In this document: positions 11,459 through 29,406 of the stretch, piece after piece
Layout of the letters: each line of letters opens with the position of its first letter
Numbering within the stretch: the first letter of the stretch is position 1
The notes under the pieces: generated by a model
The model's database searches: none
Told to the model about the DNA's origin: nothing
What the model saw: the letters and a program-made list of their open reading frames with translations, nothing else
Origin: Solidesulfovibrio sp.
Lineage (GTDB): Bacteria; Desulfobacterota; Desulfovibrionia; Desulfovibrionales; Desulfovibrionaceae
Assembly: GCF_029978005.1 (NCBI RefSeq)
Contig: NZ_JARKOZ010000120.1
Coordinates: 1-37,879 of the forward strand
DNA: 37,879 nucleotides
Direction: 5' to 3'
Position numbers and translations under genes: made by a program

Positions 11459-11762
11459 GCGGGTCCGCCCCGGCCCGCCAGGGAGCCTTTCGCCCCGCCC
11501 CCGCAAGCCTGCAAGACCTTGTCTCGTCCCCTTTCCTCGACAAGCGCCGCCGTTTCGACATGCCTGGCCGCGATGCGCCCCGAAGGACGGCAGCCGTCCC
11601 CGAGAGGGGCGGCGGCGGGCACGATGTGGCCCGGGCGCGCGGTCTTCACGGACGCTGCGCCGTCGGCATGCGTCTTCGACTGCATGGAGCCTGACGCTCA
11701 CGCCCGGGCTAAGCGGCGGCATGCCGCAGACGCATCAGGCCGGAAATCGTTGCAAACAAATA
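11459..11762. other. GC-rich stretch without a supported gene
   Basis: Between the hybrid kinase stop and the next promoter no frame shows family resemblance or a good ribosome site. It contains short GC-rich inverted repeats (for example around GGACGGCAGCCGTCC at 11584-11598), but no hairpin followed by a T run. The last 30 bases turn sharply AT-rich. Confidence 0.5.
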
Positions 11763-11791
11763 TTGTGGTAATATTTATTTTTTCATATCAT
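11763..11791 (+). promoter_or_regulatory. Probable sigma70 promoter for the YkgJ-type gene
   Basis: TTGTGG (11763-11768) and TATCAT (11786-11791) are separated by 17 bases, inside a short AT-rich island. The -10 matches 5 of 6 consensus positions and transcription would begin about 28 bases before the ATG at 11826. Confidence 0.5.
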
Positions 11792-11825
11792 AGGAGGCGA
11801 TTTCAAGCGTACGGAGCAAAAGGCA

Positions 11826-12632
11826 ATGTCCGGCGTCATAACAGCAGAAATTCGTTGCGATACGCCTCCGAATGAGCATCATGCGGTTTTTTCACTCTAC
11901 TCTGCCGGAATACAGTTCTTCATAACGGCATCACCCCAGGAATTCTCGCGCACGATCGCACGCTTCGTGAAGGACCGTGGCGACATCCTTCCCACGACGC
12001 ATGTAATCCATGGGTCCCATACCTTTTTCGATTCGATACACACCTTGCTGACCGAGCAGATCGCCAGCTCCGGACGAAGCATCTATTGCACGACGGGATG
12101 TTCGGCCTGCTGCAAGCAGGTCATCTTGTCGAATCCGTTCGAAGCCGCATTGATCGGGTTCAACCTGGCCAGGGACAAGGAGAAGCTCGAGCGTTTCCTC
12201 GAACGGTACGCCGGCTGGGACGCGGAAACAAAAGCCATGCGGTCCCGATTTCCGGGCTGGGCGGCGCGTCGGGCCCTTCATGGGGTGGACGACGGCAGTT
12301 TCGACCAGATGGAGTTCACGGCCCACTGCCCCTTTCTCGCGGACGACCTGTGTCAGATCTACCCGTGGCGTCCCTATGGTTGCAGGAGCTACCTGGCGCT
12401 TTCGGAGTCCTGCATCCGTCCGAGGGAACCGGGGCAACGACCGGGTCGCCAAGGCATGGGAATCGGCATGTCCACGTCCTTCCATCAGCGCAGGCAGCAG
12501 CTTCTGGGCCTGCTCTGGCAGGCTTTCGGCGTCGATCCGGCAAAGACGCGGGGGCACTTCCTGCCCGATCTGGTGAAGCACTTTCTCGACGGCGACATCG
12601 CCGGTCTTCTGGCACGGTGCCGCCTGCCCTGA
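11826..12632 (+). CDS. YkgJ-family cysteine-cluster protein (putative Zn/Fe-chelating)
   Basis: This protein has 268 residues. The core CTTGCSACCKQ (C88, C92, C95, C96), then CPFL (C168), LCQIYPWRPYGCR (C176, C186) and C196, is the signature of the YkgJ family (PF03692), thought to bind zinc or an iron-sulfur cluster. The biochemical role of the family is poorly known. The first ~80 residues are not typical and have no motif I recognise. The gene has its own AT-rich promoter and lower GC in its first 200 bases than its neighbours, which could mean it was acquired. It is convergent with the metal-efflux operon; whether it is linked to metal handling is open. The ATG follows AAAGGC. Confidence 0.75.
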   Translation: MSGVITAEIRCDTPPNEHHAVFSLYSAGIQFFITASPQEFSRTIARFVKDRGDILPTTHVIHGSHTFFDSIHTLLTEQIASSGRSIYCTTGCSACCKQVILSNPFEAALIGFNLARDKEKLERFLERYAGWDAETKAMRSRFPGWAARRALHGVDDGSFDQMEFTAHCPFLADDLCQIYPWRPYGCRSYLALSESCIRPREPGQRPGRQGMGIGMSTSFHQRRQQLLGLLWQAFGVDPAKTRGHFLPDLVKHFLDGDIAGLLARCRLP

Positions 12633-12832
12633 TCTCCCGGCCGAAGCAGTTCCTCGTCCGGCTCGCCAACGCGACTTGGCGGATCCGCCGCGCACGATGA
12701 CGGCGGCGATGTCCTGGGGCGGCGCTTCGCCGCGGGGAAAGCCTGCCTAGCACCAAGCCCTGCGCGCGTTTTCGAAAACGCAGCCCCCTGCGCAGTTGCG
12801 CCAGCCTCGCCCGCTCGTCCAAACCAAACGGA

Positions 12833-15800
12833 CTACTTTCTCCCTGGCGGCAAGCCGTGTCCTTTCCACAGGGCGTAGATGGCCGGATAGAGCAGCAATT
12901 CCAGAATGGTCGAGGTGACCACGCCGCCGATCATGGGCGCGGCGATGCGCTTCATGATGTCCGAGCCGGCCCCTTGGCTCCACATGATGGGGAGCAGACC
13001 GGCCAGGATGACCGTCACGGTCATGATCTTCGGCCGGATGCGTTTGACCGCGCCGTGGAAGATGGCGTCGTTTAGGTCGTCCCGGGTACGGAGCCGCCCT
13101 TCCCTCTGCCATTGGGCATGCGCCAGCTCCAGGTAAAGGAGCATGACCACGCCGGTCTCGGCATCGAGGCCGGCCAGGGCGATCAGTCCGATCCAGACGG
13201 CGATGCTCATGTTGTAGCCGAGCAGGTAGAGAAACCAGAACGAACCGACCAGGGAAAAGGGCACGGCCAGAAGCACCACGCAGGTGCTCGCCACCGATCC
13301 GGTGTTGATGTAGAGCAGCACGAAAATCAGGGCCACGGTCAGCGGAATGACGAGCTTGAGGCGCTCGTGGGTGGCCAGCAGGTATTCGTATTCGCCGCTC
13401 CAGACCAGCCGCACGCCCTTGGGCAGGGACAGGCCGGCCACGGCCTGTCTGGCCCGCTCCACGTACGAGCCGACGTCCGGACCGGTGAAGTCCACGTAGA
13501 CGTAGGAAACGAGCAGCCCCTCCTCGCTTTTGATCACCGTGGGCCCCTTGACCACCTTGATGTCGGCCAGCTCGCCCAGGGGAATCTGGGCCGTGCCGGC
13601 GGCGGCCGCCACACCCAACGGCGGCGGCAGCGCGGAAGGCCAAGCCCCCATCTTCCGCCCTTCGCCTGGCTCCTGCCGGGACATGACCGGCACCAGCACG
13701 CGGCGCAGCTTGTCCAGACTGTCGCGCAATTCCCTGGGGTAGCGCACGTTGACCGGATAGCGCTCGCGGCCTTCCACCGTCGTGGTCAGGTTCATGCCGC
13801 CCACGGCCGATTGCACGATGTCCTGCACCTCGCCCACGGAGAGCCCGTAACGGGCCGCCTCCTGCCGCTTGACCGCGATGTCCAGGAAATAGCCGGTGCC
13901 CACCCGCTCCGCGAAGACGCTGCGCGTGCCGGGAACGCCGCGAATGGCGTTTTCTATGGCTTCGCCGGCGGCCTCGATGGTGGACAGGTCCGGCCCGAGC
14001 ACCTTCACGCCGACCGGCGTGCGGATGCCCGTGGCCAGCATGTCGATGCGGGCCTTGATCGGCATGGTGAACGCGTTGACCACCCCGGGCATCGCCAGCT
14101 TGGCGTCCATCTCGGCCTTGAGCTTTTCCACGGTCATGCCCGCCCGCCATTCGGACTCGGGCTTGAGGTTGATCGTGGTCTCGAACATCTCCAGCGGGGC
14201 CGGGTCGGTGGCGGTTTCGGCCCGGCCCGCCTTGCCGAAGACTTGCTCCACCTCCGGAATGGTCATGAGGACCGCGTCCTGGTATTGCAACAGCTTTTGC
14301 GCCTGGCCGATAGAGGCCCCGGGCATGGTGACCGGCATGTAAAAAAGCGTTCCCTCGTAGAGCGGCGGCATGAATTCCGAACCCAGCCGCGAAAACGGGA
14401 TGACCGTCACGGCCAGGACCGCCACGGCCAGGACCAACAACGTCTTTTTAAAGCGCAGGGCGAGATGGGCGAACGGCGTATAGAGCAGACGCAGCAGGCG
14501 GCTGATCGGATTATGGTCCTCGGAGCGCACCGTGCCTCTGATGAAAATGGTCATCAGCACCGGGGTCAAAGTCACGGCCAGAAGCGAGGCGAACAGCATG
14601 GCGAAGGTCTTGGTGTAGGCCAAGGGCGTAAAAAGCCGGCCGGCTTGGGACTGGAGCGTGAAGACCGGCAGGAATCCGAGGGTGATGACGAGCAGGGAGA
14701 AAAAGAGCGACGGCCCCACCTCCACGGCCGCATCCACGATCACGGCCGTGCGGCTGCCCGGCCGGCCCTCCTGCTCCCATTCCTCGAGACGTTTGTGGGC
14801 GTTTTCCACCATGATGATGGACGCGTCGACCATGGCGCCGATGGCGATGGCGATGCCGGAAAGACTCATGATGTTGGAGGAGACGCCCAGGGCGTGCATG
14901 CAGACGAACGCCATGAGGATGGCCACGGGCAACGTCAGGATGACCACGAGCGCGCTTGGCAGGTGGAACAGGAACACCACGCACACGACCGAGACGGCCA
15001 CGGTCAGCTTGACGATCTCCTCGGTCAGGGTGTGGACCGAGCGCGTGATGAGGTCGGAGCGGTCGTAGGTCGGCACGATGCGCACGCCCTCGGGCAGGGT
15101 CGGGGCGATGTCGCGCGCGATCTTTTCCTTGACCCGCTCGATGACGGACAGGACGTTTTCGCCGAAACGCACCACCACCACGCCGCCCACCGCCTCGCCC
15201 CGGCCGTCGAGGTCGGCGACGCCGCGCCGGATTTCCGGCCCGATGCGCACCTCGGCAACATCCTTGAGTAAGATCGGTGCGCCTCGGGCGTTGCGCCCCA
15301 GGGAAATCTGCTCCAGATCGGCCGCCCCGGTCAGGTAGCCCCGGCCGCGCACCATGTATTCGATGCCGGAAAATTCCAGCACCCGGCCTTCCACCTCGGT
15401 ATTGCTCTGCTTGACGGCCTCCAGGACCCGGGAGAGCGGGATGTCCTGGCTTTGCAGTTTCCCCGGGTCGACCGTGATCTGGTACTGTTTGACGTAGCCG
15501 CCGAGGCTCGCCACCTGGGCCACGCCGGGCACGCTCTCCAGGGACAGTTTGAGCGTGTAGTCCTGAAGCGAGCGCAGCTTGCCGAGATCGTAGCGGTTCC
15601 CGTCATCGACCAGGGCATAGGAAAAGCCCCAGCCGAGGCTGGTGGCGTCCGGACCGAGCTGGGGCGTGACCCCGGCCGGCATCTTGCTCGTCACCGACTG
15701 CAGGTATTCGAGAATGCGGCTGCGCGCCCAGTAGATGTCCGTGCCTTCCTCGAAGATCACGTAGACGAACGAGCTGCCGAAAAAGGAGAATCCGCGCACG

Positions 15801-16045
15801 GCCCGCACCTTGGGCGCGGCGAGCAGGCTCGTCACGATGGGGTAGGTCACCTGGTCCTCGACCAGGTTGGGGCTGCGTCCGGCCCAGTCGGTATAGATGA
15901 TGACCTGCGGGTCCGAGAGGTCCGGTATGGCGTCCAGGGGCGTCTGTCGCAGGGCCCATGCACCCCACAGGACGCACAGGGCCGTGGCCAGGATGACCAG
16001 GAACCGGTTGCGGGCGCTGGCCGCGATGACGGCGCGGATGGGCAT
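12833..16045 (-). CDS. cusA: Heavy-metal efflux RND pump, Cu(I)/Ag(I) type
   Basis: This 1070-residue RND inner-membrane pump is the usual size for CusA/CzcA. It shows an N-terminal membrane helix (~14-33), two large periplasmic loops, and the proton-relay segment GAMVDASIIMVENAHK with D407 in the fourth helix. The three methionines that bind Cu(I)/Ag(I) in E. coli CusA (M573, M623, M672) have counterparts M570 (FYMP), M620 (APLEM) and M669 (RIDML), with similar flanking sequence. Copper or silver rather than zinc/cobalt export is therefore likely. It works as a trimer with the fusion protein and outer-membrane factor encoded upstream. I chose the ATG ending at 16045 (AGGA upstream), because the 21 residues from the earlier ATG at 16108 are not family-like. 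It is last in its operon. Confidence 0.92.
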   Translation of the reverse strand: MPIRAVIAASARNRFLVILATALCVLWGAWALRQTPLDAIPDLSDPQVIIYTDWAGRSPNLVEDQVTYPIVTSLLAAPKVRAVRGFSFFGSSFVYVIFEEGTDIYWARSRILEYLQSVTSKMPAGVTPQLGPDATSLGWGFSYALVDDGNRYDLGKLRSLQDYTLKLSLESVPGVAQVASLGGYVKQYQITVDPGKLQSQDIPLSRVLEAVKQSNTEVEGRVLEFSGIEYMVRGRGYLTGAADLEQISLGRNARGAPILLKDVAEVRIGPEIRRGVADLDGRGEAVGGVVVVRFGENVLSVIERVKEKIARDIAPTLPEGVRIVPTYDRSDLITRSVHTLTEEIVKLTVAVSVVCVVFLFHLPSALVVILTLPVAILMAFVCMHALGVSSNIMSLSGIAIAIGAMVDASIIMVENAHKRLEEWEQEGRPGSRTAVIVDAAVEVGPSLFFSLLVITLGFLPVFTLQSQAGRLFTPLAYTKTFAMLFASLLAVTLTPVLMTIFIRGTVRSEDHNPISRLLRLLYTPFAHLALRFKKTLLVLAVAVLAVTVIPFSRLGSEFMPPLYEGTLFYMPVTMPGASIGQAQKLLQYQDAVLMTIPEVEQVFGKAGRAETATDPAPLEMFETTINLKPESEWRAGMTVEKLKAEMDAKLAMPGVVNAFTMPIKARIDMLATGIRTPVGVKVLGPDLSTIEAAGEAIENAIRGVPGTRSVFAERVGTGYFLDIAVKRQEAARYGLSVGEVQDIVQSAVGGMNLTTTVEGRERYPVNVRYPRELRDSLDKLRRVLVPVMSRQEPGEGRKMGAWPSALPPPLGVAAAAGTAQIPLGELADIKVVKGPTVIKSEEGLLVSYVYVDFTGPDVGSYVERARQAVAGLSLPKGVRLVWSGEYEYLLATHERLKLVIPLTVALIFVLLYINTGSVASTCVVLLAVPFSLVGSFWFLYLLGYNMSIAVWIGLIALAGLDAETGVVMLLYLELAHAQWQREGRLRTRDDLNDAIFHGAVKRIRPKIMTVTVILAGLLPIMWSQGAGSDIMKRIAAPMIGGVVTSTILELLLYPAIYALWKGHGLPPGRK

Positions 16046-16097
16046 GGCGGACGATCCTTTGGAAGCCTTCGGCGACCAGGGCTCCGCCCTGGACCCG

Positions 16098-16121
16098 CCG
16101 GGGGGCATGATGCCCCCCCGG
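16098..16121. repeat. GC-rich intercistronic hairpin between the EF-hand gene and cusA
   Basis: CCGGGGGGCAT pairs with ATGCCCCCC(C)CGG around a one-base centre. It is one of three similar CCGGGGG-armed hairpins in this window. There is no T run, so mRNA stability or processing is more likely than termination. Confidence 0.6.
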
Positions 16122-16160
16122 CCCCCTCTCTGGGTTCATGGGTCCTTTCCGGCAGGACGG

Positions 16161-16400
16161 CTATTTGACCTTGGCCGCTTCGACGGCGTCGAACTCTTCC
16201 CGGCTGACTTTGCCGTCGCCGTCCTTGTCGTATTTGGCGAAGTCGTTTTGCATGCCGTGGGCGGCGAACTCGTCCTTGGTCAGCACGCCGTCCTTGTTGG
16301 CATCCATGGCTTTGAACATGTCCTCGTCCGCCGCGGCGACGCCGGCCAAACCCAGGGCCAGACCGCCGGCCAGCATGGCCGTCATCAGGATCTTGCGCAT
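16161..16400 (-). CDS. Small exported EF-hand calcium-binding protein inside the efflux operon
   Basis: The protein has 79 residues. A signal peptide (about 1-24, MRKILMTAMLAGG..., cleavage after AAA) precedes two EF-hand loops: DANKDGVLTKDE (33-44) and DKDGDGKVSREE (58-69). Both have Asp/Asn at positions 1, 3 and 5, Gly at 6 and Glu at 12, so both should bind Ca2+. It would act in the periplasm. GGAGG stands just before the ATG. It lies between cusB and cusA, about where E. coli has the copper chaperone CusF between cusC and cusB, but it has none of CusF's Met/His/Trp copper site. Other secreted EF-hand proteins are known in Desulfovibrio-like genomes, but a function in metal efflux is only inferred from position. 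Confidence 0.85.
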   Translation of the reverse strand: MRKILMTAMLAGGLALGLAGVAAADEDMFKAMDANKDGVLTKDEFAAHGMQNDFAKYDKDGDGKVSREEFDAVEAAKVK

Positions 16401-16446
16401 AGTTCCTCCATGGTTTCTGTTTGTGGACTCCCCCTTTGCAGGGGTG

Positions 16447-16465
16447 CCGGGGGACGTTCCCCCGG
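16447..16465. repeat. GC-rich intercistronic hairpin between cusB and the EF-hand gene
   Basis: CCGGGGGA and TCCCCCGG are perfect 8-base arms around a 3-base loop. More paired GC blocks follow up to about 16500. The arms resemble those at 16098 and 36649. Confidence 0.6.
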
Positions 16466-16515
16466 GGGTGGGGCCAGGGAGGGGCGACGCCTCTCCCGGG
16501 CCTGCGGTGGCTCAC

Positions 16516-17823
16516 TTAATGATGATGCCCGCCGCCGCCGCTGCCGCCGCGCAAGCGTGTTTCGGAATCGATGAGGAAGGCGGCGGCCGCGGCCACCTTG
16601 TCTCCGGCAGCCAGCCCGGAAACGACCTCCACGTCTTCGCCGGCCTCGACGCCGGTCGTGACGTGGCGCATCTCGAAGACGCCCTCGGACTTGGCCACGT
16701 AGGCCACCTGCCGCTCGCCCGTGTCGATGACGGCTTCGCGGGGCACGACCAACCGCTGCCCCAGGTTTATGGCGATTTCGGCCTGGGCGTACTGACCGGG
16801 CCGCAGAACGTTTTTGGGGTTGGCGAGCACGAAGCGGACCTTGGCCGTGCGCGTTTCGTCGGCCAGGGTCGGGTAGATGTAATCCACGGTGGCCGGGAAG
16901 GCGTCGGGCAGACCGGCCAGGCGCAGGGTGGCCTTGGTCCCGGGGCCGACCCAGGGGAGTTCCTGGGGGTAGACGTCGGCGACGACCCAGACTTTCGAAA
17001 GGTCGGCCAGTTCGAGGAGCGTTTCGCCGGGCATGACCCTGCCGCCTTGGATGACGGCCTTGCGCACCACGAAGCCGTCGACGGGACTGGCGAGGGCAAA
17101 GGTGCGCACCGGCCGGCGGGTCCGCTCCAGGGCGGCGGCCAGTCCTTGGCCGACGTCGTAGAGCCGCAGCCGGTCCCTGGCCGCGCCGAGCAGCGCCCTG
17201 GCGTCCCGGTTGCCGAGGGAAAGATTCGGATCGGCGCCGACGGTCGGGGCCGGAGTCGAGTCGGCCCAGGATAAAAGGCGCAGGTATTCCATCTCCACGG
17301 CCATGACTTCCGGGCTGTAGATGGCGGCGAGGGTCTCGCCTTTCCTGACCGGTTTGCCCGTGGAATCGGCGTAGAGCTTTTCCACCCAGCCTTCGACCTT
17401 GGTCGTCACGGCCACAAGGGTGCTTTCGTCCAGCTCCACGCGGCCGGTGGCGCGCAGGGCGCGCTGGAGCGGCTTTTTCGCGGCGACGACGGTGGAGACG
17501 CCCATGGCCCGCATGATGTCCGGGCCCATGGTGACGGTGGGCGGCGGCGCGACATGGCCGGCATGACCGCCGGAATCGCCCCCTCCGGCCTGGCCCTGGG
17601 AGCCGGTCGGGACTGGAGCCGGGGGTGCCGGTTGCCTGGAAGAAGCGTCCGGGGGCATCGGCATGTTGTGGCCGGCATGGGGAGACGCCGCAGCGGCCGG
17701 CGCTTCGGTCCCCTGCCCGGCCTGGGGCATGGCATGCCCGGCGTGCTCCGTTTGAGCCGGGACGCGTCCCGGCACGGACAGTGCGGCAACGAGGAGAAAG
17801 AGGGAAAAATACGAGCGCGGCAT
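16516..17823 (-). CDS. cusB: RND efflux membrane fusion protein, CusB-type, with His/Met-rich ends
   Basis: This 435-residue periplasmic adaptor has a signal peptide (1-23). A low-complexity linker (25-95) holds three HAGH motifs (27-30, 49-52, 87-90), two of them followed by methionine pairs (AMP, NMPMP). The adaptor body follows: barrel-sandwich halves around VEGWVEKLY (~148-156) and SPVDGFVVRKAV (~242-253), a short helical hairpin, and the beta-barrel and membrane-proximal domain (VWVVADVYPQELP). The protein ends in HHH. In CusB the N-terminal methionines take Cu(I) from the chaperone; the richer His/Met linker here may do the same or replace a separate chaperone. It starts 22 bases after the outer-membrane factor gene, with GGAG before the ATG. 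Confidence 0.9.
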   Translation of the reverse strand: MPRSYFSLFLLVAALSVPGRVPAQTEHAGHAMPQAGQGTEAPAAAASPHAGHNMPMPPDASSRQPAPPAPVPTGSQGQAGGGDSGGHAGHVAPPPTVTMGPDIMRAMGVSTVVAAKKPLQRALRATGRVELDESTLVAVTTKVEGWVEKLYADSTGKPVRKGETLAAIYSPEVMAVEMEYLRLLSWADSTPAPTVGADPNLSLGNRDARALLGAARDRLRLYDVGQGLAAALERTRRPVRTFALASPVDGFVVRKAVIQGGRVMPGETLLELADLSKVWVVADVYPQELPWVGPGTKATLRLAGLPDAFPATVDYIYPTLADETRTAKVRFVLANPKNVLRPGQYAQAEIAINLGQRLVVPREAVIDTGERQVAYVAKSEGVFEMRHVTTGVEAGEDVEVVSGLAAGDKVAAAAAFLIDSETRLRGGSGGGGHHH

Positions 17824-20082: not shown

Positions 20083-20422
20083 CAATGACAACGAAATTTC
20101 ATAAAAATACATGAAAAATAATTGAAATCAACGAAAAGGCAAAACACGCTCCGGTCACGGTTATTATTACCCGCGAATCGAAAATACTTCAACTATTAAC
20201 AATTTTTGAAATTGCGAACCAGGGCACATTGGTTGCTTTTACCTGCCCTTGAAACGGCGCATGCCTCCACTTTTTTTTCAAGAACGGCCGCGTACCGCAC
20301 ACCAGAGCCGCGACGGTGGATACCGGGGAATGCTTGCTCAAAAACGACGCTTCTCCGTTCGTGAGGCAGGGGGTCATTGTCAGCGCCCATCCTTTTTCAC
20401 CGTAAACACCAGCGAGGGGGTC

Positions 20423-21784
20423 ATGACGGACAAGACCAAGAATTCGGACCGCCCAGCCGCCGGCGGCACGGCCGACAGCGCGGCAACTGGCGAGGAGCGT
20501 GTCCTCGCCGGAACACAGGACCGCGAGACGATCATCGGCCGGGCCGTGGAAGAGGCCGTGCTGCACGGGATCTTCCGCGGCCGGACGGTCACCCGGCGCG
20601 GCTTCATCCGACAGCTTGGCTTGGCCGGAGCCATGGCCGTCATCGCCGACATCTTCCCCATAAACGCGGCCAAGGCCTTGGCGAACGATCCGCCCAAAGA
20701 CCTGGAGAAAACCGCCCTGAAAATCGGGTTCATCCCCATAAACTGCGCCACGCCCATCATCATGGCGCACCCCATGGGCTTTTACGAGAAGCATGGCCTC
20801 AAAGGCACGGAAGTGGTCAAGGGCGCGGGCTGGGCCATGATCCGCGACTGGGCCGTGTCCAAGCAGATCGACTGCGCCCACATGCTGGCCCCCATGCCCC
20901 TGGCGCTGACCACGGGCGTCGGTTCGTCCACCACACCCTTCGTCATACCCGCCCTGGAGAACCTCAACGGCCAGGCCATCGTCCTGCACAAAAAACACAA
21001 GGACCTCACCGAGGCCAGCCAACTCAAGGGCATGACCCTGTGCATCCCCTTCGAGTTCTCCATCCACAACCTGCTGTTGCGCTACTACCTGGCCGAAGGC
21101 GGCGTGGACCCGGACAAGGACGTGAAACTGCGGGTGGTCAATCCGGCCGAGATGGTGGCCAACCTCAAGGCGGAGAACGTGGACGGCTTCATCGGACCCG
21201 AGCCGTTCAACCAGCGGGCCGTCTTCGAGGACGCCGGCTTCATCTTCAAGTTGACCCATGACATCTGGCCCGACCACCCGTGCTGCGCCTTCGCCTGCAG
21301 CCGGGAGTTCGTGACCCAGATGCCCAACACTTTCCAGGCCGCCTTCCAGGCCATCGTGGACGCCACGGTGTTCGCCACGGACCACAAGAACCGCAAGGAC
21401 ATCGCCAAGGCCATCGCTCCGCGCAACTACCTCAACCAGCCCGTGGAGGTCATCGAGCAGGTTCTGACGGGCGATTTCCCTGACGGCCTGGGCAACATGC
21501 GCCACATCCCCGACCGCATCAGCTTCCACCCCTTCCCCTGGAATTCCATGGCGGTCTGGATCCTGACCCAGATGAAGCGCTGGGGCTACCTCCAGGGCGA
21601 CGTGGACTACCGCAAGATCGCCGACGAGGTCTTCTTGTCCGCGGAATGCAAGAACATCATGGAGCAGGAGGGGTATCCCGCGCCGACCGGCTCGCCCTAC
21701 GCCCGGCACGTCATCATGGGCAAGGAATTCGATCCGGCCAACCCCCAGCAATACTTGGACAGCTTCCCCATCCGGCGCGGCTAG
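20423..21784 (+). CDS. NrtA/CmpA-type ABC transporter substrate-binding protein, Tat-exported
   Basis: This is a 453-residue protein with a long polar N-region, then TRRGFIRQLGLAG (57-69), a twin-arginine signal with R58-R59 and cleavage near AAKA-LAND (~84). The mature part (from ~98, LKIGFIPINCATPIIMAHPMGFYEKHGL) is the periplasmic binding fold of the nitrate/bicarbonate (NrtA/CmpA) branch of the NitT/TauT family. SIHNLLLRYYLAEGGVDPDKD (213-233 region) and PAEMVANLKAENVDGF follow the NrtA pattern, including a His (H215) at the position that helps hold the anion in NrtA/CmpA. It would deliver a small anion to the permease encoded next. Start: ATG at 20423 after GAGGGGG; a longer frame from 20249 has no support. 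Nitrate, bicarbonate or another ligand cannot be decided from sequence. Confidence 0.85.
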   Translation: MTDKTKNSDRPAAGGTADSAATGEERVLAGTQDRETIIGRAVEEAVLHGIFRGRTVTRRGFIRQLGLAGAMAVIADIFPINAAKALANDPPKDLEKTALKIGFIPINCATPIIMAHPMGFYEKHGLKGTEVVKGAGWAMIRDWAVSKQIDCAHMLAPMPLALTTGVGSSTTPFVIPALENLNGQAIVLHKKHKDLTEASQLKGMTLCIPFEFSIHNLLLRYYLAEGGVDPDKDVKLRVVNPAEMVANLKAENVDGFIGPEPFNQRAVFEDAGFIFKLTHDIWPDHPCCAFACSREFVTQMPNTFQAAFQAIVDATVFATDHKNRKDIAKAIAPRNYLNQPVEVIEQVLTGDFPDGLGNMRHIPDRISFHPFPWNSMAVWILTQMKRWGYLQGDVDYRKIADEVFLSAECKNIMEQEGYPAPTGSPYARHVIMGKEFDPANPQQYLDSFPIRRG

Positions 21785-21952: not shown

Positions 21953-21962
21953 ATCGTTGCAC

Positions 21963-22742
21963 ATGGCAGTCCCCTCCGACACCGCCAAGGGCTGGATATG
22001 GCTGAGCCTCGTCGTCCTGCTGCTTTTCCTGGGCGTATGGGCGCTTTTCGCCTTGACCTCCAAGACCTTCCCGAGCCCCGCGGCCGTGGCCCGGGAATCC
22101 TGGTTCTTCCTGTCCAGGCCTTTCTACGACGGCGGGCCCAACGACAAGGGCATCGCCATCCTCACCGCCTACAGCCTGGCCCGGCTGTGCACGGGCTTTC
22201 TGGCCGGGTCCGTGGTGGCCATCCTGCTCGGCGTGATCCTCGGCCTCAACCAAACCCTGTTCAAGGCCCTCAACCCCTATATCCAGATGCTCAAGGCCAT
22301 CTCGCCCATCGCCTGGATGCCGCTGCTGCTCTATTCGGTCAAGGACAGCGGCTGGGCCGCCCTGCTGGTGGTGTTCATGGCCAGCCTGTGGCCCACCCTG
22401 GCCAACACCGCCTTCGGCGTCTCCAACATCAAAGCCGACTATCTCAATATCGCCAACATCCTGCAGATGAAGCCTCTGACCAAGGTGTGCAAGGTCATCC
22501 TGCCGGCCGCCGGACCGACCATCGTGGCCGGACTCAAGATCTCCATGGGCAGCGCCTGGGTGGCCATCGTGCCGGCCGAAGCCCTGCTCGGCTCCCTGGG
22601 CCTGGGCTATTTCGTATGGAACGAATGGAACAACCTGTCCCTGGCCAGCGTCATCTTCGCCATCCTGATCATCGGCGTGGTGGGCGTGCTGATCGACAAC
22701 CTGTTCAGCAGGCTCGCCGGAGGGCTGGCCTATGTGGACTAG
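21963..22742 (+). CDS. ABC transporter permease, NrtB/SsuC type
   Basis: This 259-residue inner-membrane permease has about six hydrophobic segments, starting with WIWLSLVVLLLFLGVWALFAL (12-32). The ATPase-contact loop lies near AEALLGSLGLGYFVW (~204-218), matching the EAA-type motif of BPD_transp_1 permeases of the NitT/TauT group. It forms the membrane channel with the ATPase encoded next. I prefer the ATG at 21963; a TTG at 21957 in frame is equally close to AAGGATC. The stop codon overlaps an in-frame ATG of the next reading frame (22732). Confidence 0.85.
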   Translation: MAVPSDTAKGWIWLSLVVLLLFLGVWALFALTSKTFPSPAAVARESWFFLSRPFYDGGPNDKGIAILTAYSLARLCTGFLAGSVVAILLGVILGLNQTLFKALNPYIQMLKAISPIAWMPLLLYSVKDSGWAALLVVFMASLWPTLANTAFGVSNIKADYLNIANILQMKPLTKVCKVILPAAGPTIVAGLKISMGSAWVAIVPAEALLGSLGLGYFVWNEWNNLSLASVIFAILIIGVVGVLIDNLFSRLAGGLAYVD

Positions 22743-22848
22743 AACCGAACCAGAGGACCAGGCGCCTGCGGCGGCGCCGCTCTTCGGACCCGTCGGCGTC
22801 CTGCCGCAGGACGATCGCGGCGGATCGCGCCGCCAAGGGGGAACAACC

Positions 22849-23631
22849 GTGTCCAAGGCCATGTTGGAAGTGGAGAAGATATCGAAGCATTTCACCCTGT
22901 CCGGCCAGAAGGAGCCCTTCTGCGTGTTCCGCGACCTCTCGCTGCAGGTCAGGGAGAAGGAGTATCTGTCGGTGCTCGGGCATTCCGGCTGCGGCAAGTC
23001 GACCCTGCTCAACATCATCGCCGGAATCGACACGGCCAACTCCGGCCACATCATCCTCAACGGGCGCGAGGTCCAGGAGCCGGGTCTGGACCGCATGGTC
23101 GTGTTCCAGAACTTCGCCCTGATGCCCTGGCTGACCGTGTTCGGCAACGTCCGGCTGGCGGTCAGGGCCCGCTACCCGGAATGGTCCAAGCAGCAGGTCG
23201 CCGACTGGGTCGACAAGTACCTGGACATGGTCGGCCTGTCCGGCGCCGCCAACAAGCGCCCCTGGGAACTCTCCGGCGGCATGCGCCAGCGCGCCGGCAT
23301 CGCCCGGGCCTTTTCGGTCAAGCCGAGCATCATGCTCCTCGACGAGCCCTTCGCCCAGATCGACGCCCTGACCCGCGGCGTCATCCAGGACGAACTGGTG
23401 CGCATGTGGGAGGAGACGGGCATCACCATCTTCATGGTCACCCACGACGTGGACGAGGCCATCCTGCTCTCCGACCGCATCATGCTCATGTCGCCGGGGC
23501 CGCAGGCCAAGTTCATGGACGAGATCGAGGTGGACATTCCCCGCCCGCGCAAACGGATAAGCATCATCGAGCATCCCCGTTTTTACGAGATCCGCAACAG
23601 GATCATCAGCTTCCTGTCGCAAAAGGGCTAG
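22849..23631 (+). CDS. ABC transporter ATP-binding protein, NrtD/TauB type
   Basis: The protein has 260 residues. Walker A is GHSGCGKST (45-53), the signature is LSGGMRQRAGIARAF, Walker B is IMLLDEPFAQID, and the switch histidine is in MVTHDVDEA. These are complete, so it should hydrolyse ATP to drive the permease. The preferred start is GTG at 22849 because AGGGGGAA lies 7 bases upstream and the protein then begins as the family does (ML.VEKISKHF). An alternative ATG at 22732 overlaps the permease stop and would add 39 low-complexity residues. The C-terminal IDVPRPR-like segment (VDIPRPRKR) is typical of this group. Confidence 0.88.
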   Translation: MSKAMLEVEKISKHFTLSGQKEPFCVFRDLSLQVREKEYLSVLGHSGCGKSTLLNIIAGIDTANSGHIILNGREVQEPGLDRMVVFQNFALMPWLTVFGNVRLAVRARYPEWSKQQVADWVDKYLDMVGLSGAANKRPWELSGGMRQRAGIARAFSVKPSIMLLDEPFAQIDALTRGVIQDELVRMWEETGITIFMVTHDVDEAILLSDRIMLMSPGPQAKFMDEIEVDIPRPRKRISIIEHPRFYEIRNRIISFLSQKG

Positions 23632-23754: not shown

Positions 23755-25776
23755 ATGGCAGCGCATTCCCACGACGAGGGGTCGCACCACCATTCCCACG
23801 ATCACGACGGGCACCACCACCATCATCACCATGGCCCGGACGCCTGCAACGACTACGCCACGGCCGTCGCCCAATACCGCAAAACCTTCGCCAGCAAGGC
23901 CGAAGTCATGGCCCAGGCGCCGGATCCGGCGGTGCGCGAGATGGTGGCCTACATGGACCGCCTGGGCTGCGAGAACTGCTTCGACCGCTTCGATCAGCAA
24001 AAGCCCCAATGCACCTTCGGCCTGGCCGGGGTGTGCTGCAAAAACTGCACGCTCGGTCCGTGCAAGATCACGAAGAAATCCCCCCGGGGCGTGTGCGGGG
24101 CCGGAGCCGACCTGATCGTGGCCCGCAATCTCTGCCGGCACGCCGCGGCCGGGGTCTCGGCCCACGGTTCCCGGGCCCGCGAGGTCATGCTGGCCCTGCG
24201 CAAGGCCGCCGCCGGCGAGATCAAGATCCCCATCCTCGGCCGGGAAAAAGTCCTGGCCACGGCCAAGATGTTCGGCCTGGAGGTCGAAGGGCAGTCCGTC
24301 GAAGCCCTGGCGGGGCGCATCGCGGACATCCTGCTCGAAGACATGAGCCGCACCGTGCCGGGTCCCCACCGCACGCTGTCCGCCGTCGCCACGCCCGAGC
24401 GCCGCCAGGTCTGGGAGCAGCTCGGGCTTTTGCCTGTCAGTGCCTACCACGAGGTCTTCGAGGCCCTGCACCAGACCGTCACCGGCAACCAGGGCGACTG
24501 GCGCAAGGTGATGGACCAGTTCCTGCGCTGCGGCATCGCCTTTTCCATGTCGAGCGTGGTCGGCGGCTCCATCGCCAGCGACTGCCTCTACGGCGTGCCC
24601 ACCCGGGCCACGTCCAAGGTCAACCTGGGGGCCCTGGAAAAGGGCTGCGTCAACATCGCCATCCACGGCCACGCCCCTATGCTCGCCATGGAGATCGTCC
24701 GGCTGGCCCGGACCGAAAAGTTCACGGCCATGGCCCGGGCGGCCGGCGCCGGGGGCATCCGCTTCTACGGCATCTGCTGCTCGGGGCTGTCCGCCATGTA
24801 CCGGCTCGGCGGCGTCATTCCCCTGGCCAACGCCAACGGGGCCGAACTGGTGCTGGCCACCGGCGCCCTGGACCTCTGGGTCGCCGACATCCAGGACATT
24901 TTCCCGGCCATCATGGACGTGGCCAACTGCTTCAAAACCGTGGTCGTCACCACCAACGAATCCACCCGTCTGCCCGGCGCCGAGCACTACGGCTACAAAC
25001 GCGACCTGTCCGACCTGGACCGGATCGGCGACCTGGCGGAGAAGATCCTCACCCGGGCCGTCGAGAGCTACACGCAACGCCGCGACGTGCCGGTCCACAT
25101 CCCTCCCTACGAAGTCGAGGCCGAAGTGGGATTTTGCCTGGAGTATCTCAACAAGCGCTACGGCGGCAGCGTCGCGCCCGTGGCCGAGGCCCTGCGCAAC
25201 GGGACCATCCGCGGCGTCATCAACCTGGCCGGCTGCACCAACACGCGCATCGTCTACGAAAAAGCCATCGTGGATATCGTCGACGTCCTGTTGCAAAACG
25301 ACATCCTGGTCCTGGCCAACGGCTGCGCCTCCTTCCCCATGGCCAAACTCGGCTACTGCACGGTCAAGGCGCAGGAGCGTTGCAGCGAGGGTCTCAAACG
25401 TTTCCTGGGCGACGACATGCCACCGGTGTGGCACATGGGCGAATGCATCGACAACGCCCATGCCGCCGTATTTTTCCGCACCGTGGCCGACATGCTGGGG
25501 CATCCCTTCAAGGACCTGCCCTACGCCGAAGTCACGCCGGAGTGGTCCAACGAAAAGGGCGTGGGTGCGGCCCTGAGCTTCCGCATGCTCGGCTTCAATT
25601 CCTACCATTGCGTCCACGCCCCGGTGCAAGGTTCGGACGCCGTCATGGGCTTCATTTACGGCGGCACAGCCGAACTCCTTGGCTCGGCGATGATCGTGGA
25701 CACGGATCCGGTCAATCTGGCAAATCGCATCATCTCGGATTTCAACCAGAAGCGGGAAGATCTCGGCTGGACGTAA
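23755..25776 (+). CDS. cooS: Divergent anaerobic CO dehydrogenase (CooS) homologue with His-rich tail and altered active-site cluster
   Basis: This 673-residue Ni,Fe-CODH-fold protein starts at an ATG after GGAGG. Residues 4-26 hold 14 histidines, a likely nickel/zinc-binding tail. Cysteines C86 and C94 (D cluster) and C95, C98, C103 and C114 (B cluster) are all kept. By my recall of C. hydrogenoformans CODH-II, the C-cluster ligands H261, C295, C446, C476 and C526 and the base K563 correspond to H306, C342, C494, C524, C564 and K601. The position of C333 (DYQCIQP) is here DIQDIFP, with D381. H93 is kept as H137, but the next relay histidines are R140 and E143. CODH interconverts CO and CO2; with this substitution the activity is uncertain. 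It follows an NrtABD-type importer; no cooC, cooF or cooA is seen. Confidence 0.85.
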   Translation: MAAHSHDEGSHHHSHDHDGHHHHHHHGPDACNDYATAVAQYRKTFASKAEVMAQAPDPAVREMVAYMDRLGCENCFDRFDQQKPQCTFGLAGVCCKNCTLGPCKITKKSPRGVCGAGADLIVARNLCRHAAAGVSAHGSRAREVMLALRKAAAGEIKIPILGREKVLATAKMFGLEVEGQSVEALAGRIADILLEDMSRTVPGPHRTLSAVATPERRQVWEQLGLLPVSAYHEVFEALHQTVTGNQGDWRKVMDQFLRCGIAFSMSSVVGGSIASDCLYGVPTRATSKVNLGALEKGCVNIAIHGHAPMLAMEIVRLARTEKFTAMARAAGAGGIRFYGICCSGLSAMYRLGGVIPLANANGAELVLATGALDLWVADIQDIFPAIMDVANCFKTVVVTTNESTRLPGAEHYGYKRDLSDLDRIGDLAEKILTRAVESYTQRRDVPVHIPPYEVEAEVGFCLEYLNKRYGGSVAPVAEALRNGTIRGVINLAGCTNTRIVYEKAIVDIVDVLLQNDILVLANGCASFPMAKLGYCTVKAQERCSEGLKRFLGDDMPPVWHMGECIDNAHAAVFFRTVADMLGHPFKDLPYAEVTPEWSNEKGVGAALSFRMLGFNSYHCVHAPVQGSDAVMGFIYGGTAELLGSAMIVDTDPVNLANRIISDFNQKREDLGWT

Positions 25777-26158: not shown

Positions 26159-27532
26159 TCACCGCTGCAACTTTGCTAAAAGTGTCTTCCTCGTGATGCC
26201 GAGCTGTTTGGCCGCTTCGGTCTTATTGCCGCCTGTCACCTCCAATGCGGCCAGGATGGCCTCGCGTTCGACCGCTTCCAAAGGCTGGATCGCCGTCGGC
26301 CCGGCCGGCAGCCCCCCCTGGCCGGGCTCCGGTTCCTGCGGCGCGGATGCCTGGACGACGCCGAGCGGCAGCTCCCTTTCCGTGACGAAATCGCCGGGCA
26401 TGAGCACGACCGCCCGCTCCACCGCGTTTTCCAGTTCGCGCACGTTGCCCGGCCACTGGTGCTTGAGCAGCATGTCCATGGCCAAAGGCGTAAACCCCTT
26501 GGCGACCTTCCGGTTGGCCTCGGCGAATCTGTGCAGGAAATGCATGGCCAAAAGCGGCACATCCTCGCCTCGCTCCCGAAGCGGCGGCACGGCGAGGGCC
26601 ATGACGTTGAGCCGGTAGTACAGGTCTTCCCGGAACCGCCCGGCCGCGACCTCCGCTTTCAGGTCCCGGTTGGTGGCCGCCACGATGCGCACGTCCACAC
26701 GCAGGGTTCGGTCGCTCCCCACCCGCTGGATTTCCCGCTCCTGGATCGCCCGCAGGAGCTTGGCCTGCATGGCGGCGGAGGTCTCGCCGATCTCGTCGAG
26801 GAAAATGGTGCCCTTGTCGGCCTGCATGAAGCGCCCTTCGCGACGCTTGTCCGCGCCGGAAAAGGCTCCCTTCTCGTGGCCGAAAAGCTCGGATTCGAGC
26901 AGTGTTTCGCTTAAGGCCGCGCAGTTGACAGTGACCAGGGGACCGCCCCGGCGGGGGCTGTTGGCATGGATGGCCCGGGCGATGAGTTCCTTGCCCGTGC
27001 CGGATTCCCCGGTCACGAGCACCGTGGCCTCGGAGGGCGCGACCATGGCCACCATGTCCATGAGCCGGCGCATGGCCGGACTGTTGCCGATAATGCTCCG
27101 AGGGTCGAAGGCGCAGACCAGGCGCTCTCGAAGCTCCCTGTTTTCGGCCTTGAGCGAAACGTGCTCCAGGGCCCGCTCCATGGTCAGGCGCAGCACGTCG
27201 AAGTCCAGCGGCTTGGTCAGGTAGTCGTAGGCCCCGGCCTTGATGGCCTCCACCGCCGACTCCACGTTGGAATAGGCGGTCATGATGAGCACCGGGATAG
27301 CGGGATTGTAGGCCTTGATTGCCTTGAGCGCCTCGATGCCGCCCATGACGGCCATGCGCACGTCCATGAGGATGAGGTCAAAGGGCTTTTCCCTGGCCAG
27401 GGTCACGGCCTTGGCTCCGTCGTCGGCGCCGGCGGCCGCGTAGCCCCAGCCGTTGATGAGGGCCAGCAAAATGGTGCGGTGGCTCTGGTCGTCGTCCACC
27501 ACCAGAACGGTGGTCTTGGCTTTGGCGGGCAT
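26159..27532 (-). CDS. zraR: Sigma54-dependent response regulator, ZraR/NtrC type
   Basis: This 457-residue protein begins with a receiver domain with VVDDDQS and phosphoacceptor D57 in LMDVRM. The AAA+ domain has GESGTGKE (175-182, Walker A), the sigma54-contact loop as GAFSGA (222-227), GTIFLDEIGE (241-250, Walker B) and the arginine-finger region RFREDLYYRL. The C-terminal Fis-type helix-turn-helix reads GGNKTEAAKQLGITRKTLLAKL. It opens sigma54 promoters when phosphorylated. It pairs with the kinase whose gene ends 15 bases upstream. Together with the divergent ZraP-like gene and a sigma54 promoter, this matches the zraP-zraSR arrangement. I use the ATG ending at 27532 (GGAG upstream); GTG at 27541 is an alternative. 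Confidence 0.85.
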   Translation of the reverse strand: MPAKAKTTVLVVDDDQSHRTILLALINGWGYAAAGADDGAKAVTLAREKPFDLILMDVRMAVMGGIEALKAIKAYNPAIPVLIMTAYSNVESAVEAIKAGAYDYLTKPLDFDVLRLTMERALEHVSLKAENRELRERLVCAFDPRSIIGNSPAMRRLMDMVAMVAPSEATVLVTGESGTGKELIARAIHANSPRRGGPLVTVNCAALSETLLESELFGHEKGAFSGADKRREGRFMQADKGTIFLDEIGETSAAMQAKLLRAIQEREIQRVGSDRTLRVDVRIVAATNRDLKAEVAAGRFREDLYYRLNVMALAVPPLRERGEDVPLLAMHFLHRFAEANRKVAKGFTPLAMDMLLKHQWPGNVRELENAVERAVVLMPGDFVTERELPLGVVQASAPQEPEPGQGGLPAGPTAIQPLEAVEREAILAALEVTGGNKTEAAKQLGITRKTLLAKLQR

Positions 27533-27547
27533 GACTCTCACTCCGTA

Positions 27548-29308
27548 TCAGGCGCGGGCGGGCAGAAGAATGGAGAAAATGGAACCCCGGCCGGGCGTGC
27601 TTTTGGCCTGGATTTCCCCCTGGTGCGCCTCGATCAGCTTCTGGGCGATGGCCAGGCCCAGGCCCGTGCCCGAGGGTTTGGTCGTAAAATAGGGATTGAA
27701 GATGCTCCCCAGACTTTCGGGCGGGATGCCCTGCCCGGTATCCTCGACGTCGATGCGCACCCGGCCCCGGGCCGCCTCGTGGACGGTCCGGACGGACAGG
27801 ACGCCGCCGCCGTCCATGGCCTGGACGGCGTTGAGGCACAGGTTGAGCAGGACCTGGGCGAAGCGGTCGGGGTCGACGGCGACCTTGGGCAGCTCCCCGT
27901 CATGGGCAAAGGCCACCCGCACCTTGTGGGCGGTCGCGTCCGGCCCGATCAGGCGCAGGGAACGTTCGACGAGTTCCAGGAGGTCCGTCGGCCGCATCTT
28001 GACGTCCGAGGGCCGGGCGAAATCCAAAAGCTCGGTGATGACCCGGTTGAGCCTGTCCACCTCCCGGGCCATGACCTCGGCCAGCACCCGGCCTTCGCTG
28101 CCGGCGGCGAAATGCCCCTCGAAGTATTTGGCCGCGCCCTTGATGGAGGACAGGGGATTTCGGATCTCGTGGGCCACGCCGGCGGCCAGGCCGCCCAGGG
28201 CGGCCAGCTTTTCCCGGCGGCGGACCTCCTCCTGGAGTTGCCGCACCTCGCCGAGATCCCGGAAAATATAGATGTTGCCCAGGTGCGCGCCTTCCTCGTT
28301 GACGATCCTGGAGGCGCTCACACTCAGCGGCAGGCTCTTCCCGCCGTCGAAGGAGCACTCGGTTTCGCGCTCCGTCACCGGCTCCCCGGCCTCGATGACC
28401 TCCTGAAGGCCGCACCATACCGCGGGGAGAACCTCCTGCGGCAGCTTGCCGACGACGTCGGCCGCCTTGAAGCCGGCGATCCGCTCGGCCGCGCCGTTGA
28501 CCACGGCCAGACGGCCGTCGCTGCCCGTGGTGAGGAGCCCCACCGGAAGATTGTTGACGATTTCCGTGGAGAACGCCTGTGTATCCTTGAGCTGCCGTTT
28601 GGAAAGTCGGTAACTTTGCGCCCAGAAGAGGGTCAAGACGCCGCCGACGCCGAGCAGGAAGAGGATGGCCGCCAGCACCACGGAATTGCGCGTGTCCTCG
28701 GCCAGGGCGGCCTCGTACGGGGCAAGGTCGAAGTCGGCGAAGATGACTTGCCGACCGACTCCCGGGGCCGCCTGGGATCCGCTCCAGGGACAGGCATGCC
28801 CCTCCGCTTCCTCGCCGCAGTCGTCGGCCCCGGCGCGGCCCAGCCCGGGTTCGAAGGCGCGGTAGACCTCAAAGGCCTTGCGCCCGCCGGGCAGGGTCGT
28901 CGCCCGCCATTTCTCCCGCGCCGCCACGCGAAGGGCCGCCATGGTTTGCGAATCGTAAAGGCTCTGGCCGATCTTGGTCTTGTCGCTGTGGGCCAGGATG
29001 CGGCCGTCGGCATCCGTCACGGCCAGTTGCAGGACGCCGGGTTGCCTCGCTGTTTCCTCGAGCAGCGCCTGGAATTGCTCTCCCCGCCAATGCATCCCCA
29101 GGCCCAGGCGCGCCCCGGCCTCGAAGGCCCGGATGAACGCCGTGCCTTTTTCAAAAAGCGTCTGCCCGGTCAGGACATTTTCCCGATGGGTGTTGCGCGT
29201 GGTCATCACGGCCATGACCACGGCCAGAATGACCACCGAACCGAGGTAGAGCCAGGGAGGGATATTGGCCAGAAATCGAGGTCCCGGCCTGGATTGTGTC
29301 TGCATCAT
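27548..29308 (-). CDS. zraS: Membrane sensor histidine kinase, ZraS-like
   Basis: The kinase has 586 residues. Membrane segments at about 18-37 and 208-229 enclose a ~170-residue periplasmic sensor. This has a Cache-like part (VLQLAVTDADGRILAHS, 92-109) and an insert with C164, H171 and C173, possible metal ligands. A PAS domain (~245-355) precedes HisKA with GVAHEIRNPLSSIKG (H380) and HATPase boxes ending in GTGLGLAIAQKLIEAH. In E. coli ZraS senses zinc/lead in the periplasm and phosphorylates ZraR. The signal here may differ, since the sensor sequence is not clearly conserved. The start is at tandem ATGs (29308/29305) after GAGGAAGG. Naming rests on architecture and gene order rather than close identity. 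Confidence 0.82.
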   Translation of the reverse strand: MMQTQSRPGPRFLANIPPWLYLGSVVILAVVMAVMTTRNTHRENVLTGQTLFEKGTAFIRAFEAGARLGLGMHWRGEQFQALLEETARQPGVLQLAVTDADGRILAHSDKTKIGQSLYDSQTMAALRVAAREKWRATTLPGGRKAFEVYRAFEPGLGRAGADDCGEEAEGHACPWSGSQAAPGVGRQVIFADFDLAPYEAALAEDTRNSVVLAAILFLLGVGGVLTLFWAQSYRLSKRQLKDTQAFSTEIVNNLPVGLLTTGSDGRLAVVNGAAERIAGFKAADVVGKLPQEVLPAVWCGLQEVIEAGEPVTERETECSFDGGKSLPLSVSASRIVNEEGAHLGNIYIFRDLGEVRQLQEEVRRREKLAALGGLAAGVAHEIRNPLSSIKGAAKYFEGHFAAGSEGRVLAEVMAREVDRLNRVITELLDFARPSDVKMRPTDLLELVERSLRLIGPDATAHKVRVAFAHDGELPKVAVDPDRFAQVLLNLCLNAVQAMDGGGVLSVRTVHEAARGRVRIDVEDTGQGIPPESLGSIFNPYFTTKPSGTGLGLAIAQKLIEAHQGEIQAKSTPGRGSIFSILLPARA

Positions 29309-29406
29309 TGCCTTCCTCTTGTGCGGGCGTGATCTGCCGGCTGCCGCCCTTCGATGGTGAGAACAGGACACCCGCGTAAAAAGTAAACGGGCAAGACATA
29401 GCAGGT

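Follow-up and report, generated by a model that had tools for sequence, protein, structure and literature searches.

The closest described systems to the enzyme analysed here are CODH-II of Carboxydothermus hydrogenoformans, CooS-V, the hybrid-cluster proteins (HCPs), the catalogued clade B CooS proteins, and the operon that joins a cyanate transporter to cyanase. CooS-V, a member of clade D (PMC13056359), has Glu in place of Cys295 and forms an Fe/S/O hybrid cluster (PMC9311411), and the same Glu, together with Tyr in place of the acid-base His and a type III D-cluster, characterises group D-1, which is of the CooS-V type (PMC6344411). The same survey defines structural group B-1 by a His-rich region at the N-terminus, a second C-cluster Cys replaced by Asp or Glu, a type II D-cluster, and the acid-base His and Lys, and its Table 2 gives Asp/Glu or Asp at the Cys333 site in groups B-1, B-2 and B-3. 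In every clade B group it finds ABC transporters of the NitT/TauT type encoded nearby; it also remarks on the homology of the clade B substrate-binding protein (SBP) to 3UN6, and puts forward the hypothesis that the transporter brings in Ni2+, which the His-rich tail inserts (PMC6344411). A second account, in its treatment of clade B, finds ABC-transporter genes in 64% of the operons and states that function cannot be deduced and that biochemical characterisation is awaited (PMC13056359). Since the replacement of C333 by Asp or Glu is already catalogued in the survey, the substitution itself is not new. In the open-licence PMC literature, searched through the titles and abstract openings of the top matches, we did not find clade B tied to sulfur, cyanate or thiocyanate; as far as this search shows, the operon context and the sulfur context described below are new.

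We analysed a stretch of 37,879 nucleotides from Solidesulfovibrio sp. (contig NZ_JARKOZ010000120.1), hereafter the window. It contains a CooS-like gene (23755..25776, + strand) with GGAGG seven bases upstream of its ATG, and the product of 673 amino acids, which we call CODH-B, was placed by profiles, alignments and a tree. Its score lies above the Pfam cut-off for the Prismane family (441 bits versus 27) and marginally below the TIGR01702 cut-off for CO dehydrogenases (CODHs; 473.8 versus 478). An AlphaFold model (pLDDT 83, pTM 0.84) served for a fold search, and Foldseek matched it to CODH-II (1su6) with TM values of 0.86/0.92. CODH-B has the fold of CODH-II and all of its ligands but one. 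Alignment places the D/B-cluster cysteines at C86, C94, C95, C98, C103 and C114, five of the six C-cluster ligands at H304, C342, C494, C524 and C564, and the acid-base groups at H137 and K601. The sixth C-cluster ligand, C333 of CODH-II, corresponds to D381 (codon 24895..24897, + strand, calculated from the ORF start), so that the set of one His and five Cys is incomplete. Phmmer alignment to solved structures is gap-free here, with conserved flanks on both sides; the segment reads DIQDIFP in CODH-B versus DYQCIQP, DYQCIMP and DVQCIMP in three solved CODHs, CODH-II among them, and MAFFT alignments likewise put D381 in the C333 column. The initial annotation had proposed both the Asp and the retention of all B/D-cluster cysteines and most C-cluster ligands; its alignment proved to be correct, with no cysteine at the position.

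The D-cluster of CODH-B is of type II, C-(X)7-13-C-C, in the form C86-X7-C94-C95, and residues 4-26 of the ORF translation (23764..23832, + strand) make up the His-rich N-terminal stretch by which group B-1 is defined (PMC6344411). On its sequence, CODH-B fits clade B, structural group B-1. Relative to CODH-II it has C333D, D219F, I567A, S525E, T474N and H99E, the codon of A605, where CODH-II has I567, being at 25567..25569 (+ strand, calculated). We take I567 and D219 to be active-site positions; structure titles among the Foldseek matches name CODH-II mutants of I567, H93, H96 and K563.

The initial annotation had also pointed to altered relay histidines after H137. Residues R140, E143 and L146 do stand at the positions of H96, H99 and H102, but loss of His at the last two is common in ordinary CODHs. 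None of the 18 ordinary CODHs compared besides CODH-II has His at either position (15 have Asp in the H99 column and 15 have Asp or Glu in the H102 column), and E143 and L146 are therefore not distinctive of CODH-B. The H96 column has Arg in 26 and His in 30 of the 56 aligned clade B proteins. A parallel with CODH-V and HCPs had been drawn as well, and this part of the interpretation did not hold. CooS-V resembles CODH-B in that a CODH scaffold has exchanged one cluster cysteine for a carboxylate, but the exchange is of Cys295 for Glu (PMC9311411) and not of C333 for Asp, and CODH-B keeps C342 and H137 and has a type II D-cluster. HCPs share the Prismane superfamily with CODH-B but retain the C333 cysteine and have Glu at position 561, the corresponding residues of CODH-B being D381 and N599; the HCP-type protein that the window's genome encodes on C201 also aligns with Cys in the C333 column. 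Because clade B keeps C295 and changes C333, and the HCP-type protein keeps the C333 cysteine, clade B has an altered site of its own. The part of the earlier interpretation that a reaction other than ordinary CO oxidation is carried out is probably right.

Residues were compared between 57 clade B proteins, CODH-B included, and 19 other CODHs, namely CODH-II, another CooS of the same genome and 17 CODHs from relatives of the window. The C333 column has Asp in 44, Glu in 12 and Gly in one of the clade B proteins and Cys in 19/19 of the others, and D381 is consequently no sequencing accident. Phe replaces D219 in 57/57 and Ala replaces I567 in 56/57 clade B proteins, the latter position being Ile in all 19 others. 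Further fixed or nearly fixed changes include S525 to Glu, adjoining a cluster cysteine, T474 to Asn, two residues ahead of a cluster cysteine, L521 to Trp and V572 to Arg; in all, 25 columns carry clade-B-specific differences of this kind. C295 is kept in 57/57, and Asn stands two residues ahead of the Lys (N599 in CODH-B). In a tree that included no author-labelled clade B sequence, CODH-B grouped with its 56 relatives apart from the 19 other CODHs with a support of 0.939. Judged by these sequences, clade B is a coherent, conserved family rather than noise. Could these proteins nevertheless be relics of degenerating CODHs that have no defined reaction? Some copies are frame-broken (through sequencing error or decay, the reading frames of L025, L052 and L053 are broken in two, and the genome of L053 has a TAA inside the frame), and a Pseudodesulfovibrio protein (L031:5032-7053) has lost C294, the Asp/Glu at C333, C446 and C526. 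The latter shows what decay looks like. None of its B/D cysteines is lost, its His-rich tail is retained, and it is apparently a clade B member without a C cluster. The mean column identity of 67% and the more than 100 invariant columns in 29 clade B proteins, together with the recurrence of the SBP and permease families in 39 of the 56 loci, make a relic a most improbable account. Genome G026 has two neighbouring clade B genes (L056:7793-9784 and 11318-13357), both with Glu at C333. The gene between them resembles a DUF169 gene of L031, and a gene for a GAF/sigma-54-type activator lies close by; the idea that the pair forms a heterodimer was dropped, both copies having Glu at C333 and keeping the other ligands.

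In the window, CODH-B is preceded on the + strand by genes for the three parts of an ABC transporter. The SBP (20423..21784) is of the CmpA/NrtA type (PF13379, 259.7 bits) and finds its solved relatives in NrtA (2g29, E 2.6e-53) and CmpA (2i48, 4.9e-47); its leader contains TRRGF, which by eye is twin-arginine-like. The permease (21957..22742, with TTG at 21957 and ATG at 21963) matches clade B permeases in tblastn at up to 34-35% identity and falls in the same family in the locus map. The ATPase (22732..23631; TIGR01184 ntrCD, 308.5 bits, cut-off 291.8) probably starts further inside its ORF, where the ABC domain begins. Its stop codon lies 123 bases ahead of the CODH-B start, and no terminator-like site was found on the + strand between them. 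Upstream of the operon there is a weak sigma-54-like -24/-12 site (20222..20237, + strand; GGGCACATTGGTTGCT, one mismatch), one of two such sites in the window versus 1.14 expected by chance. A sigma-54-dependent response regulator (26159..27541, - strand) is a possible regulator of the operon, and a PAS/cache histidine kinase (27548..29371, - strand) is its likely partner, both genes being recognised by profile matches. No Rfam family matched the window at gathering thresholds, and no cysteine or methionine gene was recognised adjoining CODH-B there. As reported for group B-1 (PMC6344411), the neighbour is a NitT/TauT-type ABC transporter, but it belongs to the CmpA/NrtA branch, that of cyanate operons, and its SBP shares about 29% identity with the clostridial clade B SBP, which is of the SsuA/3UN6 type.

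The transporter type and the gene order are those of the cyanate transporter-cyanase operon (SBP-permease-ATPase-cynS), in which cynS has the place that CODH-B occupies in the window. Among the matches listed for the window SBP on plasmids, nine relatives had 45-57% identity. Of the eight that were inspected (H2-H6, H8-H10), seven have cynS behind the transporter genes (annotated in six and found by tblastn in H6), H2 having one extra gene between SBP and permease; cynS is absent from H8. It follows the transporter in none of three more distant relatives (H11, H13 and H15; 41-43% identity). In the window CODH-B and not cynS stands behind the transporter genes, no cynS match was found in the window, and TIGR00673 matched nothing in the genome to which it belongs, which is 96% complete. 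Both the SBP, found in one of 59 genomes (the window's own and 58 relatives), and CODH-B, found at high identity in three of them (its own, G018 and G026) and in 0/13 other genomes of the genus, look recently acquired. The position of CODH-B behind a cyanate-type importer suggests that clade B handles imported S- or N-containing anions rather than CO. Note that the association of a CmpA/NrtA-type transporter with CODH-B is a single case, which counts against a pseudohalide substrate. The nearest relative, L059 (78%), has its start at the edge of a contig, and the 10 kb upstream of the clade B gene of L025 (74%) showed nothing homologous to the window transporter.

Transporters of the same general kind recur around clade B. 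Since the ATPase family also takes in other ABC ATPases, the SBP and permease families were counted instead, and each is present in 39 of 56 loci, the window included; in GC-rich loci, where naive ORF calls include wrong-strand ORFs, statements on context come from homology families. Both lie within 4 kb of the clade B gene in 37/56 loci. The 19/56 loci without such a pair within 4 kb, two of which (L040 and L090) have it further away, count against the pseudohalide substrate. The clostridial SBP is closest among solved structures to 3UN6 and then to SsuA, and for the two tested the best model was TIGR01728, at 151-155 bits, below the cut-off of 163.5. It thus belongs to a different, SsuA-like branch, and one common substrate across clade B is an assumption.

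A nickel-dependent CO dehydrogenase after all, with Ni2+ delivered by the transporter and inserted by the His-rich tail, is the published hypothesis (PMC6344411). It accords with the His-rich N-terminus, with the retention of the acid-base residues H137 and K601, with a C-cluster site that has lost one of its six ligands, and with the SBP homology to 3UN6 noted in that survey and recovered here as the best solved relative of the clostridial SBP. CbiM/CbiQ-type metal transporter genes, however, adjoin the clade B gene in L040, L090 and L091, which form two clusters (models were matched for L090). L040 and L090 also have the NitT/TauT transporter, and L091 is without its SBP. These separate genes suggest that the enzyme contains nickel (or cobalt) and that the NitT/TauT-type transporter carries something else. 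Furthermore, the window SBP matches the anion binders NrtA and CmpA, and D219F is fully and I567A nearly fully fixed in clade B. An ordinary CooS that keeps C333 is already encoded in the window's genome (G000:C6:40732-42552), adjoined by a CooC-like ATPase gene (L057:7868-8671, recognised by eye). We consider CO oxidation by CODH-B very unlikely on these grounds.

A third kind of transporter appears beside Glu-type clade B genes in Desulfosporosinus (L026-L029) and in L056 of G026, where an HPP membrane protein adjoins (Pfam matches were obtained for L026 and L028); no HPP relatives were found on plasmids at E <= 1e-25. An HPP protein is described as a nitrite transporter in cyanobacteria and chloroplasts (PMC7438415). 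Several unrelated transporter types known for small anions or sulfonates (SsuA-like, CmpA/NrtA and HPP) therefore accompany the clade B enzyme. The HPP neighbours, the nitrate transporters that also belong to the CmpA/NrtA branch, and the superfamily shared with HCPs would suit the initial annotation's idea of an HCP- or CooS-V-like N-oxide reductase, whose hybrid-type cluster would act on hydroxylamine, NO or nitrite. The substituted ligand is unlike that of either model, CooS-V having lost C295 (PMC9311411) and HCP keeping C333, clade B keeps C295 and has Asn instead of Glu at the HCP Glu position, and the sulfur genes described next would be left unexplained. N-oxide reduction is accordingly a distinctly unlikely function.

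The second strand of context, sulfur nutrition, comes mainly from Firmicutes. A positional test covered 45 clade B genomes (43 assigned to Firmicutes by title or by sampled group, and the genomes of L043 and L050). Weak matches (PF01053 beyond about 1e-90, cysK below about 270 bits) were left out of it, as were Prismane fragments and, in three cases, the second copy of a tandem pair. Among the matches listed, a Cys_Met_Meta_PP or cysK gene lay within 10 kb of the clade B gene in 10/45 genomes versus 1.17 expected, with P = 1.6e-7 on the assumption that genomes are independent, which they are not. Within 15 kb the count was 11/45 versus 1.64 expected among the matches listed, which counts against the association. 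For the remaining Prismane genes of these genomes the 10 kb count was 6/86 among the matches listed, a figure that has no calculated expectation; that some of them also have sulfur genes nearby counts against the association. In the context map, cysteine/methionine genes or SAM riboswitches lie near 13 of the 56 loci (L030, L033-L035, L095, L096, L098-L101, L105, L106 and L108), few enough to be counted against a sulfur role. These loci were chosen by family and by eye, with the 45-genome test as control, and clustering at 80% identity reduces them to 5 of the 29 clusters, with gene order differing among them. All of Rfam was scanned in the window and 24 others of the 56 loci, and RF00162 alone in the 45 genomes. 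A SAM riboswitch lies about 200 bases upstream of the clade B gene in L033 and L035, and RF00162 is directly upstream in one of the 45 genomes (G064, the genome of L033, with 30 SAM riboswitches in total). Riboswitch support is thus confined to two species, and the SAM riboswitch was rejected as a general clade B feature. We take the family of the window to be sulfate-reducing; sulfide should not be scarce there, and this counts against a sulfur role in the window. Overall, the genomic context, unseen in the initial annotation, speaks for a small anion that is taken up by the cell and, among Firmicutes, for a role in sulfur nutrition.

The same neighbourhood could be read as that of an anaerobic organosulfur or sulfonate enzyme, for which a sulfonate or thioether would enter through an SsuA-like importer and have its C-S bond cleaved by CODH-B, yielding sulfite or sulfide for cysteine and methionine synthesis. 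The clostridial SBPs have TIGR01728 as their best model (151-155 bits in the two tested), a siroheme-pathway gene lies near the clade B gene in L100 and one for a sulfite-reductase-type protein in L101, and the space near the metal, to which we take residues 567 and 570 to be close, may be larger owing to I567A and a small residue at 570. In L105, cysK is followed in turn by two nitrogenase-like genes, a NifX-like gene, the transporter and the clade B gene, and among the matches listed cysK and the nitrogenase-like D/K genes form one island in L105/G647 with matching places in G614; these genes recall methylthio-alkane reductase, a nitrogenase-like enzyme of sulfur salvage (PMC12552129). Against sulfonates stand the sulfonate cut-off of 163.5, under which the SBPs remain, and the window transporter, which is of the cyanate/nitrate type rather than SsuA. 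CODH active sites are, moreover, buried and reached by narrow gas channels. We regard this function as unlikely, although less so than CO oxidation or N-oxide reduction. The D/K pair and the NifX-like gene lie at L105:11912-15246, between cysK and the clade B transporter, and the cysK and nitrogenase-like island also counts as sulfur context in favour of the pseudohalide reading. LysR neighbours in L105 were dropped as sulfur evidence, no CysB-type model having matched above its cut-off.

A cyanate-type importer in the cyanase position of the window and a sulfur role elsewhere make OCN-/SCN- the simplest substrate class that fits both. The group B-1 features, residue changes, operon layout, position of cyanase in relatives of the operon, lack of a cynS match in this genome and sulfur neighbourhood of part of the Firmicutes members are observations; the substrate, chemistry, metal content and regulation of CODH-B are inferred. 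Tentatively, and at somewhat less than an even chance, we favour the view that CODH-B is not a CODH in vivo and that it is an enzyme whose modified C cluster acts on a small anion brought in from outside, most likely of the cyanate/thiocyanate type, and which would serve cysteine and methionine supply in Firmicutes and stand in for cyanase here. It is possible, though we would stop short of calling it probable, that clade B CODHs in general are Ni/Fe-S enzymes with one carboxylate ligand that degrade imported linear pseudohalides, replacing cyanase here and providing an anaerobic route to thiocyanate sulfur in Firmicutes. The ABC transporter encoded ahead of CODH-B would deliver the anion to the cytoplasmic enzyme, where OCN- or SCN-, linear like CO2, would bind at the C cluster and be reduced or hydrolysed. 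The CO2/CO half-reaction of the C cluster might in this way be turned on these anions to yield ammonia and/or sulfide, with K601 and H137 acting as acid-base groups and, in the case of a reductive reaction, electrons coming from the D/B clusters; the carboxylate in place of the C333 thiolate would change the potential or the metal content of the cluster. Cyanate binding and COS turnover are known for CODHs. If SCN- were reduced in the way that CO2 is, cyanide, a CODH poison, would be set free, and this counts against the pseudohalide reading.

The operon with its enzyme in the cyanase position and the cysteine/methionine neighbourhood make the orphan clade B directly testable with named substrates. 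If the pseudohalide reading is true, the natural substrates of CODH-type clusters would include pseudohalides, and the sulfur sources of anaerobes would be extended by one that we did not find discussed for them in the literature searched.

Mobile elements gave a few further observations. A pattern-based search found no clade B relative on viral contigs, and one plasmid-borne relative was found at E <= 1e-100, on pRUMAL02 of Ruminococcus albus 7. This clade B operon (L117; NC_014825.1 60210-64948) lies on a plasmid typed as conjugative, and a methionine-synthase activation-domain gene is found about 7 kb downstream of it. Elsewhere in the window, positions 12833-17823 (- strand) encode a CusA/CzcA-type RND pump and a CusB/HlyD-type adaptor.
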